This document shows, one piece after another, positions 55,731 through 59,922 of a stretch of 62,011 nt of DNA (the first letter of the stretch is position 1; each line of letters starts with the position of its first letter). The stretch is from assembly GCA_937922045.1 (NCBI GenBank), contig CAKZXA010000025.1, forward strand, positions 1-62,011. Reading direction: 5' to 3'. The position numbers were made by a program, and so were the translations under genes. A model generated the notes under the pieces. The model was not told the origin of the DNA and made no database searches. It saw only the letters and a list, made by a program, of their open reading frames with translations. Origin of the DNA: an uncultured Acidimicrobiales bacterium (lineage in GTDB: Bacteria > Actinomycetota > Acidimicrobiia > Acidimicrobiales > SZUA-35).

Positions 55731-57425
55731 CTAGTTGATTCGGTTGATCCGGTCCTGTGGGCCAGGGGCAACCGGTGAATTGGCACCGAAGTAGGCGACC
55801 AGGGCGTCGAGGTCGACCTCGCCACCGAGGCGGTCGGTGCCCTCGGACAAGACGGTGAAGTTGTCGCCACCATCAGACAGGAAGCTGTTCACCGTGATCC
55901 GGTAACCAGCGGCCGGATCGACGACAACACCGTCGATCGTGATGGTCGACGGGTCAACCTTTGAACCGGTGGGCGCTGCCGCGTCCCAGGTGTAGCTGAA
56001 GCCTTCCGAGACTTGAAGGATCCGGTTGCGACCGGCCTCTGGGTTGTCGAATTGCTGCTCGAGCAGCGCATCGATCTGGGCGCCGGTCAGCGTCATCGTG
56101 ACCAGGCTGTTACCGAATGGCTGAACCCCGAAGGCTTCGCCGAAGGTGAACTCGCCGTCGGCCTCAAGGCCTTCCGACGCAAAGAAAATGTCGTTGCGGA
56201 TACCGCCAGGGTTCATGAAGGCGACAACAGCCGAACCGGTGGCATCACTCGAGGTGGCGGCCAGCTGGGCATCAGCGATGATGTCGCCGAGGGCCGATTC
56301 ACCGGCGTCGGTTGCTTCCTCGGTGATATCGACGGTGACGGTACCGATGACCTGATTGGCCAATGGAGCCGACAGCTCGTCGTAACGATCGATCAAGGCC
56401 GTGACCTCAGCGTCGGGGGTAACCCCATCCTGCAGGTTCGGCACGTTGTTGATGGCCTTGACGGTCATGTCCTTGGTGCGACGATCGAGGGTGACGTCGA
56501 TGTCGGTGAACAGACGACCGCGGTTGTCGGCCATGGTTACCCATTTGCCGTCGATTTCACAGATGAACTCATCGTTGGTGTGACCGGCGATGACCACATC
56601 GACGGCATCGTCGAGACCAGCGGCGATCTCGGCGATCGGGCCCGTGAGACCGGTGCCACAATCGTTCTGGCCTCCGTCGGAAATGCCACCCTCGTGGAGG
56701 AGCACAACGATCGACTCGATGTTCCTGCGCTGCAGATCGGCGACCAAAGCGTTGGCGGTCTCGACCTCGTCGTTGAAGGTGAGCCCGGCGACACCGGCGG
56801 GGGTGACGATAGAAGGCGTGCTTTCAAGGGTCATACCGATGAAGGCCACCCGTACACCCTGGTAATTCTTGATCGAGTAGGGAGGGAACACCGTGTCGCC
56901 AGTGGCGTCGTCCACCACGTTGGCGGCGAGGAACTGGAAGTCTGCGCCATCGAACGGCGTGCCGTCGAGATCGCCGTCAACGGGGTGTGAGCCACCGTTC
57001 TGCATGCGGAGCAGCTCGGCGGCGCCCTCGTCGAACTCGTGGTTTCCGACGGCGTTCAGGTCGAGGCCGAGAAGGTTCATTGCTTCGATCGTCGGCTCGT
57101 CATGGAACAGGGCCGAGATGAGCGGTGAGGCGCCGATGAGGTCGCCAGCCGACACAAAGATGGAGTTGTCGGCGTCAGCCTCGGCCGCAGCGATGTTGGC
57201 AGCGAGGTAGTCGGCTCGCCCGACGCCGCCGAACGAACCTGACGACGTAGCGATGTTGCCGTGGAAGTCGTTGATGGCCAAGATTTGAAGCTCGACCGGG
57301 GGCGGCCCATCGCCCTTCTTCGGCTTGGCTGCCACAGGGGCAGTGCTAGCGGCGATGATCATCGCCAGAGCGGTGAACGCTATGAAAAGCAAACGCCGGG
57401 ATTTCGTCACAATGGGTCCAGCCAT
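55731..57425 (-). CDS. Exported 5'-nucleotidase / UshA-type metallophosphatase
   Basis: 564 residues with a signal peptide ending near APVAAKP. The metallophosphoesterase motifs are LAINDFHGN, FVSAGDLIG, AVGNHEFDEG and VVIAGHTNDEF. The C-terminal 5'-nucleotidase domain (MNPGGIRNDIFFA, TFGEAFGVQPFGNSLVTM) binds the substrate. It hydrolyses extracellular nucleotides or UDP-sugars to recover phosphate and nucleosides. It is complete and stands alone. Confidence 0.92.
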   Translation of the reverse strand: MAGPIVTKSRRLLFIAFTALAMIIAASTAPVAAKPKKGDGPPPVELQILAINDFHGNIATSSGSFGGVGRADYLAANIAAAEADADNSIFVSAGDLIGASPLISALFHDEPTIEAMNLLGLDLNAVGNHEFDEGAAELLRMQNGGSHPVDGDLDGTPFDGADFQFLAANVVDDATGDTVFPPYSIKNYQGVRVAFIGMTLESTPSIVTPAGVAGLTFNDEVETANALVADLQRRNIESIVVLLHEGGISDGGQNDCGTGLTGPIAEIAAGLDDAVDVVIAGHTNDEFICEIDGKWVTMADNRGRLFTDIDVTLDRRTKDMTVKAINNVPNLQDGVTPDAEVTALIDRYDELSAPLANQVIGTVTVDITEEATDAGESALGDIIADAQLAATSSDATGSAVVAFMNPGGIRNDIFFASEGLEADGEFTFGEAFGVQPFGNSLVTMTLTGAQIDALLEQQFDNPEAGRNRILQVSEGFSYTWDAAAPTGSKVDPSTITIDGVVVDPAAGYRITVNSFLSDGGDNFTVLSEGTDRLGGEVDLDALVAYFGANSPVAPGPQDRINRIN

Positions 57426-58586: not shown

Positions 58587-59225
58587 TTAGGGCCGGTCGG
58601 GAAAGACGGGATCTTCGGTTCTGGTGCGCTTCAGCTCCCAGAATCCGTCCATCGTCGCCATCTTGACCATGGCGTCCCACAGTTCAACAGCGTCGTCACC
58701 GGGCGGGATCCGACTGATAACCGGACCAAAGATGCCCTTGGGTCCTGACGGGGTGTCGAAGGCGATGATGGGCGTGCCAACATCGTTGCCGACCAGAGCC
58801 AGACCGGCATCCATACGTTCACGGATAACCGCGTCCCATGACTCATCGTCGAAGGCGTCGTTGTACGAGGCATCCAGACCGGCCGCCTCCAGGAACGGGG
58901 TAGCGTCGCCAGCCATCACGGTGGCCGCATCAACCTTGCCGTCGGCTCGGTCGTGGTGGAGCACAGCGCCGCACTCCCAGTAGAAGCGACGGCCAGCCTC
59001 GTTGCCTTCAGCCTTCTTTACCGCTTCCATTACGCGAAGAAGGTTGTGGGTGAACGCAGATGCGCTGTGGTAGGGGCTACCTGGCTCCGGCTCGTTCTTG
59101 AAAAGCAGACTGATCGGCTCCCAGGTTATTTCCAGATCGCGCTCGGGTTGTACCACGTCGACGGCCCAACGGGCCGTCATCCAACACCACGGTCAAAGAG
59201 GGTCAACCCAAAACGAAACGTTCAC
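58587..59225 (-). CDS. Rv2466c-family DsbA-like oxidoreductase, probable selenoprotein (UPWC)
   Basis: With TGA read as selenocysteine, a frame of 212 residues runs from the GTG at 59225, which has GAAGGG about 9 nt upstream. It begins VNVSFWVDPL-U-PWCWMTARW, where the TGA (59195-59193) takes the place of the first Cys of the CPWC active site of mycobacterial mycothiol-dependent nitroreductase Rv2466c. The remainder follows that family to its end (NDVGTPIIAFD, IFGPVISRIP, ELKRTRTEDP). Without recoding, translation could start only at the ATG at 59180, which removes the active site and the first strand. A SECIS-like hairpin follows the TGA. Role inferred: thiol/selenol redox enzyme. Confidence 0.8.
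59160..59178 (-). promoter_or_regulatory. Candidate bacterial SECIS element
   Basis: On the minus strand GACGGCCC and GGGCCGTC form a perfect 8-bp stem with a GTT loop. The stem begins 14 nt and the loop 22 nt after the TGA. A guanine is the first loop base. Published bacterial SECIS models ask for a G in the first two loop bases and roughly 16-37 nt between UGA and loop, so this fits. Confidence 0.7.
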
Positions 59226-59307
59226 AGAACAACACCCTTCACTTGTCTAGTCGAGGGCACTCATCGTATCCGGCGATCGATCCTCGTTGTTCGCCCCTAG
59301 CAGATGA

Positions 59308-59922
59308 CTAGCCGTTGAGCTGGTTGAGAACGCCGTCGATATCGCAGCTCTGCCCCTTGTTGTACGGGAGCTTGCCGAGCACCCGGGCCATGGCGCAGGT
59401 GTTGGAAACCGCCGAGAAGGTGAGGCCGGCGCCGATGGCTCCAGCGAACCATTTGGCTGGCGGAAATACGAGACTGGCAAGAATGCCGGTCAGCGTCAGC
59501 GAGCCTGCGACCAGTCGGACCTGGCGGTCCATGGCCCAACGCTCGTTCTCGCCTCGGGTCACGTCGCCACCGCTTGATTCCCAGGCCGCCATGCCACCTT
59601 CGAGAATGTGCAGTCCGCCTTTGCCCGCGCTTTCGAGCTTGGCGTGGGCCTGCGTGGCCCGAGCCCCAGACTGACAGACGAGCACAACGGGATGACTGAC
59701 GTTGGCCAGGTCACGTGCATGCTCGGCCAGCGTGTCGAGCGGCACGTTGTAGGAGCCGGGGATGTGGGCTGTCTCAAACTCTCCGCCGGTGCGGACGTCG
59801 AGAATGCGGATGCCGGGATCATCACTTCGTAGCCGGTGAAGATCAGAGGTGGTAATGGTCCCGCTGCTGATGCTGTTACCAGCGTGGCTGTTGATATCGC
59901 TGTTGGAAATGGTCGTTGACAT
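59308..59922 (-). CDS. Rhodanese domain fused to a DUF2892-type membrane domain
   Basis: 204 residues. The rhodanese part has ILDVRTGGEFETAHIPGSYNVPL and the active loop CQSGAR (Cys83). A C-terminal region with two hydrophobic segments (about 133-165) and SNTCAMARVLGKLPYN is the DUF2892 type. It probably moves sulfane sulphur at the membrane. It lies 82 nt upstream of the selenoprotein gene in the same direction and may be co-transcribed with it. GAGGAG precedes the ATG. Confidence 0.87.
   Translation of the reverse strand: MSTTISNSDINSHAGNSISSGTITTSDLHRLRSDDPGIRILDVRTGGEFETAHIPGSYNVPLDTLAEHARDLANVSHPVVLVCQSGARATQAHAKLESAGKGGLHILEGGMAAWESSGGDVTRGENERWAMDRQVRLVAGSLTLTGILASLVFPPAKWFAGAIGAGLTFSAVSNTCAMARVLGKLPYNKGQSCDIDGVLNQLNG

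Follow-up and report, generated by a model that had tools for sequence, protein, structure and literature searches.

Rv2466c of Mycobacterium tuberculosis is a cytosolic mycothiol-dependent oxidoreductase (PMC11841060). In Rv2466c and in NCgl2478 of Corynebacterium glutamicum, the first Cys of the active site is the nucleophile (Cys19 in Rv2466c) and the second one resolves; the electrons come from mycothiol, and for NCgl2478 also from thioredoxin, and both genes are induced by SigH under oxidative stress (PMC8280269, PMC11841060). Rv2466c itself has been studied largely for activating antitubercular prodrugs (PMC11841060). Selenocysteine (Sec) has been described in DsbA-like proteins. Nine sequences with UxxC were found in the Sargasso Sea and assigned to COG2761 (PMC1088965); the Global Ocean Sampling (GOS) data contained DsbA 1 (UxxC, 63 sequences), DsbA 2 (UxxC, a weak pfam01323 match, 18 sequences) and also DsbA 3 (PMC2398784). 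A 2026 review states a coverage of 119 selenoprotein families or subfamilies and lists two DsbA-like forms with PF01323 (PMC13188914). The bacterial SECIS model given there has a loop of 3–9 nt, a stem of 4–16 bp, a G in the first two loop positions, a UGA-to-loop distance of 16–37 nt and an MFE of at most -7.5 (PMC13188914).

The window, i.e., the whole 62,011-nucleotide stretch of DNA analyzed, from an uncultured Acidimicrobiales bacterium, contained a complete Rv2466c-like (PF22234) gene on the minus strand (58587..59225), identified by translation and profile match, with 212 residues, one in-frame TGA and a UPWC active site. The frame ran from GTG 59225 to TAA 58589-58587 as VNVSFWVDPL-U-PWCWMTARW... 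and included only this TGA (59193..59195, minus strand), at residue 11, which is the first position of UPWC and the predicted Sec. The codon of the second active-site Cys, residue 14 and the last position of UPWC, was located at 59184..59186 (minus strand), and this Cys is presumed to be the resolving one by analogy with Rv2466c Cys22. Upstream of the TGA, the frame is closed by a TAG (59249-59247), and GTG 59225 was the sole ATG, GTG or TTG in this interval. A Shine-Dalgarno-like GAAGGG, read directly from the sequence, was found 9 nt before this GTG (59235..59240, minus strand). The conventional ORF list placed the gene at 58587-59180, from ATG 59180, and the active site was lost. An earlier sequence-only reading had described an in-frame TGA at 59195-59193 inside an otherwise complete Rv2466c-like protein, a GTG start with a Shine-Dalgarno sequence, and ordinary gene calling that starts at 59180 and drops the active site; all three were confirmed. 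It is very probable that the gene encodes a genuine selenoprotein (UPWC) of the Rv2466c family. The case is computational and consists of the reading frame, codon conservation, a hairpin, the Sec machinery, co-occurrence and the predicted fold.

The read-through protein matched the Pfam Rv2466c-like model PF22234 with 124.9 bits (cut-off 27). Its match to PF01323 was weak (24.4 bits, just under the cut-off of 25.6), although UxxC was present, and NCBIfam gave no match at E 0.001; up to E 10, only a thioredoxin model was returned (E 0.17). In the three printed alignments with M. tuberculosis Rv2466c structures, the TGA fell on the first Cys of CPWC without a gap, which agreed with the proposal that it replaces this residue. 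A fourth structure-sequence match, with the M. leprae entry 4wkw, spanned residues 4-208. U-P-W-C is the Sec variant of the C-P-W/F-C active site of the family (motif as given in PMC8280269), and Sec at this position fits the chemistry since the first Cys is the nucleophile in Rv2466c. The AlphaFold model had a mean pLDDT of 94.7. Compared with the re-aligned top chains from Foldseek, it gave Z 24.1 for 4wkw, 23.8 for 4zil (Rv2466c), 22.3 for 4nxi and 22.2 for 5xur, and the first structure outside those Rv2466c-type chains was Deinococcus DR2335 (7dk9, Z 18.2).

Relatives were picked by similarity from the window's family, from named assemblies (mostly Acidimicrobiia, Acidimicrobiales and Acidimicrobiaceae; the best 80 of 532 confirmed relatives), from a phylum sample and from further stretches. 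For the codon count, an alignment had to start no later than residue 11 and reach at least residue 14; in the second batch, only the condition on the start was applied. The codon at the active-site column was TGA in 116, TGC in 41 and TGT in 9 of the 166 places read, and nothing else was found, a recurrence well above anything expected by chance; these places are not independent, as L134 and L164 represent a single gene, the window gene is included as L021 and some organisms may be represented in both the family and the named-assembly sets, and the hairpin statistics were therefore calculated on unique 48-mers. The sequence-only reading had suggested aligning homologs across the TGA, and the column was indeed Cys or TGA in every place, with conserved flanks. 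The similarity that it had noted on both sides of the TGA was also recovered among the aligned relatives, where W6, D8, and P9, all before the TGA, were invariant in 19/19 rows.

In the window's family, a relative was matched in 38 of 39 genomes, and the 30 loci taken from them carried TGA (26), TGC (3), or TGT (1). The phylum sample comprised 396 genomes, with a match at E 1e-30 in 93; twelve rows were flagged as having one TGA, and at the column four of these had TGA (three genomes, all from the window's own order) and eight had TGC. The marine actinobacterium MedAcidi-G3 (L081) also carried the TGA form. On a tree of 153 rows, six changes between Sec and Cys were needed, and the starred branches forced at least four; the tree was quick, with long branches, and left out L021, L164, rows shorter than 150 residues and identical rows. 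The Sec form was probably gained once and reverted to Cys several times, with the direction being a reading of this quick tree. Three loci (L087, L111, and L117) contained both a TGA gene and a divergently oriented CPFA paralog of the same family, with starts ~1.4 to 1.5 kb apart.

Downstream of the TGA, a bacterial SECIS hairpin was predicted at 59160..59178 (minus strand) from fold, conservation and covariation, with an 8-bp stem GACGGCCC/GGGCCGUC and the loop GUU. The hairpin GACGGCCC-GUU-GGGCCGUC had an energy of -14.9 kcal/mol and a z of -4.29, and 0/200 shuffles were as stable, whereas the wider stretch of 46 nt from the TGA had a z of only -1.77, with 10/200 shuffles as stable. Counting from the nucleotide that follows the TGA, the loop started at nt 23 (22 nt between), with G followed by U. 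Its loop, 8 bp, 22-nt distance and energy were all within the published limits for bacterial SECIS elements as given in PMC13188914.

Among the 91 unique TGA sequences, all eight pairs were formed in 74, seven in 16, and six in one (mean 7.80). The mean was 3.92 of 8 for the 50 unique Cys sequences and 4.93 for the 14 of these with at least 45% identity. All eight pairs were kept in one of the 50 Cys sequences (L138) and seven pairs in two, so the hairpin by itself is not enough to tell the TGA class from the Cys class. When synonymous codons of the TGA set were randomized, the mean was 6.31 of 8 pairs and the largest of 300 set means was 6.58, which indicated that the pairing comes partly from protein conservation; the mean energy was -13.1 kcal/mol observed vs. 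-7.6 kcal/mol randomized. The pair n18-n30, with third codon positions on both sides, was GC in 73 of the 91 sequences, AT in 7, CG in 4, GT in 3, TA in 2, TG in 1 and mismatched in 1. The sole mismatch was L178 of the divergent g5 clade (L176-L178), in which TARWVV was changed to TSRWLV and most of the stem was re-formed by different pairs. The loop was GGU instead of GUU in 22/91 unique TGA sequences. The hairpin is strong but non-exclusive evidence for Sec.

The genome of the window (4.88 Mb, 128 contigs, 96.87% complete) was searched for selA, selB, selD and tRNA-Sec, as had been proposed with the first reading, and all were present above curated cut-offs: tRNA-Sec with 67.1 bits (cut-off 47; ARAGORN SeC, anticodon TCA), selB with 253.5 (242.25), selA with 400.3 (267.9), and selD with 359.9 (125). 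The genes selA and selB were adjacent, with an ATGA overlap (G000:C103:7273-10268, L165; profile matches). The TGA of this ATGA is the stop codon of selA and its ATG the start of selB, which showed that the genome also uses UGA as a normal stop. The selD gene (G000:C14:85125-86042, L019 and L166; profile match) contained an in-frame TGA (GAGUAAKLG), and SelD is therefore itself a probable selenoprotein; it is an established selenoprotein family (PMC13188914, Table 1).

A pattern search of the order for D-P-x-U-P-W-C-W found the TGA motif in 103/397 genomes, and the reversed control pattern gave no matches among the rows listed in the same order-wide search. A selA match (E at most 1e-40) was present in 237/397 genomes of the order: 98 of the 103 with the TGA motif and 139 of the other 294, leaving 5 and 155 without it. 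The co-occurrence was significant by Fisher's test, ignoring shared ancestry (p 1.5e-20). The five genomes with the TGA motif and no selA match at E 1e-40 were G577 (83% complete), G692 (93%), G703 (74%), G718 (76%), and G764 (73%), and missing contigs would be the simplest reason. In the window's family, G017 and G018 had no selA match, and their single relatives carried TGT and TGC. In G016 and G037, selA was present and the best relatives carried TGC, which shows that a genome with selA need not use Sec in the Rv2466c-like gene.

The window genome contained another Rv2466c-like gene, identified by alignment, that also had TGA at this column and the hairpin (G000:C68:7674-8285; L134, and L164 at 2175-2786). 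In ordinary ORF calling it was likewise shortened, with the start at a GTG downstream of the TGA and a length of 190 aa. Two further PF22234 paralogs without TGA (G000:C32:49682-50302, L167; G000:C76:9335-9925, L168), with the motifs CPFA and CPWA, were more distant from the window gene than the C68 copy. These motifs keep one Cys, and thus both redox positions occurred only in the two Sec forms, of the four family members found. The reading of the TGA as Sec was supported by the machinery, the TGA/Cys column, the covarying hairpin, the co-occurrence with selA and the second Sec paralog.

Directly upstream on the same strand was a gene for a rhodanese domain plus a YgaP-like transmembrane domain (59308..59922, minus strand; domain match), which is regarded as a neighbor only. 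Among 75 TGA loci with flanks (ORFs of at least 110 aa, the 25 largest clusters), no neighbor was widely conserved; apart from the gene itself, more than 20 of the 75 loci were reached only by two clusters consisting mostly of antisense frames that overlap it, and the idea of a conserved operon was dropped. A UshA-like 5′-nucleotidase gene was found at 55731-57425 (minus strand). Some UshA-like proteins are selenoproteins. As a candidate second selenoprotein in the window, this gene was set aside because it looked ordinary: it reached 45 bits with NF041198 (cut-off 275), and the stop codon of its frame is not TGA.

We infer the actual incorporation of Sec, the thiol partner, the substrate and the physiological role as follows. 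The hairpin at 59160-59178 would guide SelB with its bound Sec-tRNA-Sec, and Sec would be inserted at the UGA. The Sec would take the place of the nucleophilic Cys in U-P-W-C, with the second Cys resolving: the selenolate would attack a disulfide, and Cys14 would resolve via a selenenylsulfide. The enzyme might then be re-reduced by a low-molecular-weight thiol, probably mycothiol, and its most likely task would be the reduction of disulfides or mycothiolated proteins in the cytosol under oxidative stress.

Four other explanations were considered. The first is that the protein belongs to the selenoproteins already described as DsbA-like (Sargasso COG2761, and GOS DsbA 1 or DsbA 2, with UxxC), so that the family is not new. 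This is quite possible, if somewhat short of probable. Such selenoproteins are listed in PMC1088965, PMC2398784, PMC1794560, PMC5029168, PMC9312934, and PMC13188914, and the weak PF01323 match (24.4 vs. 25.6 bits) resembles that described for DsbA 2. The marine MedAcidi-G3 has the present form, and some published marine DsbA-like sequences may thus be the same family under another label. However, the Sargasso set was assigned to COG2761, Rv2466c and mycothiol were absent from the main texts of PMC13188914, PMC9312934, PMC12013277, PMC5029168, and PMC1794560, and Rv2466 was not found in the available text of PMC2398784. Table 1 of PMC13188914, in the form available, contained no family named Rv2466c, PF22234 or mycothiol-linked, and the accessible part of PMC4531530 did not mention an Rv2466c-like selenoprotein family. 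A literature search, with most subscription journals outside its reach, returned no paper joining a selenoprotein with Rv2466c. The sequence-only reading had regarded a Sec version of this enzyme as outside the standard selenoproteins; this stands insofar as the family is unnamed in the available parts of the selenoprotein lists examined, and does not stand insofar as Sec-containing DsbA-like UxxC proteins are already in print. The novelty is moderate: the find is a lineage-wide Sec subfamily and not a new mechanism, and the decoding mechanism itself is standard.

The second explanation accepts the selenoprotein and gives it a thiol other than mycothiol, with a role unlike that of Rv2466c (thioredoxin-driven, a peroxidase or a detoxifying reductase). 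We regard this as possible but rather doubtful. The best MshC-like gene in the window genome scored 417-418 bits and the best MshA-like gene 377.3 bits, both under the curated cut-offs (485.1 and 462.5, respectively); NCgl2478 of C. glutamicum is also reducible by thioredoxin (PMC8280269), and the 75 loci had no widely conserved neighbor that could point to a role. On the other side, the MshC-like gene preferred MshC over CysS (417 vs. 345 bits) and a second gene showed the reverse (CysS 382 vs. MshC 278), while the MshA-like gene was far above the next glycosyltransferase (377 vs. 110). By analogy with Rv2466c, a mycothiol-dependent function of the window enzyme is somewhat favored.

The third explanation, that UGA has been reassigned throughout the genome (e.g., to Trp) or that a selenium-independent suppressor inserts Cys there, would also restore the frame by reading TGA as an amino acid. 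It is very improbable and was rejected: the column was otherwise Cys only and never Trp in the 166 places, UGA works as a stop, e.g., at the end of selA, and the complete Sec set is present, with the complete hairpin tracking the TGA forms. The least probable, with hardly any chance of being correct, is that the TGA is a genuine stop or was introduced by a sequencing error, the gene being a pseudogene or starting at ATG 59180, as the standard ORF list (58587-59180) and translation table 11 would have it; it was rejected, because TGA recurs at the same column in 116/166 places and in many separately assembled genomes, the protein is conserved on both sides, and truncation would delete the catalytic motif in dozens of genomes in which the preceding codons are nevertheless conserved.

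Returning to the gene as a predicted Rv2466c-type selenoprotein, we propose, tentatively and with close to even confidence, that the Acidimicrobiales possess a selenium branch of mycothiol redox control. A Sec-Mrx2 would have been gained once, would exist in two copies in some genomes, and would have been retained, along with the Sec machinery, in a large part of the order, with repeated reversion to Cys. If this is true, no Rv2466c/Mrx2-type selenoenzyme would have been named as such before, and the use of Sec would be tied to mycothiol metabolism. Its recognition adds a named Sec subfamily of a redox enzyme, which can stay hidden wherever it is present since its active site is removed when genes are called in the usual way. 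The natural Sec and Cys orthologs, including those of G017 and G018 without a selA match, offer material for studying what makes a lineage retain selenium in a single enzyme.

Compared by description only, the published DsbA-like selenoproteins (Sargasso COG2761; GOS DsbA 1, 2, and 3; forms 1 and 2 of the review) are likewise bacterial and mostly UxxC; however, they were assigned to PF01323 or COG2761 and not named Rv2466c-like in the available descriptions. SelD in the window genome shares the in-frame TGA, but it is a selenophosphate synthetase. Deinococcus DR2335 (7dk9) and FrnE (5xwh and 5cnw) are Cys enzymes. They share the DsbA-like fold but score lower (Z 18.2 and 12.7 to 12.9, respectively) than the Rv2466c-type chains, and they are 15 to 20% identical to the protein here. 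The closest system is Rv2466c of M. tuberculosis (Mrx2 / DsbA-Mrx1 cluster), which belongs to PF22234, aligns with the model at Z 23.8 (4zil, 37% identity over 195 aligned residues) and carries CPWC at the same place as UPWC here. In Rv2466c the nucleophile is Cys19, whereas in the window gene this position is a predicted Sec, and the gene contains a SECIS-like hairpin.
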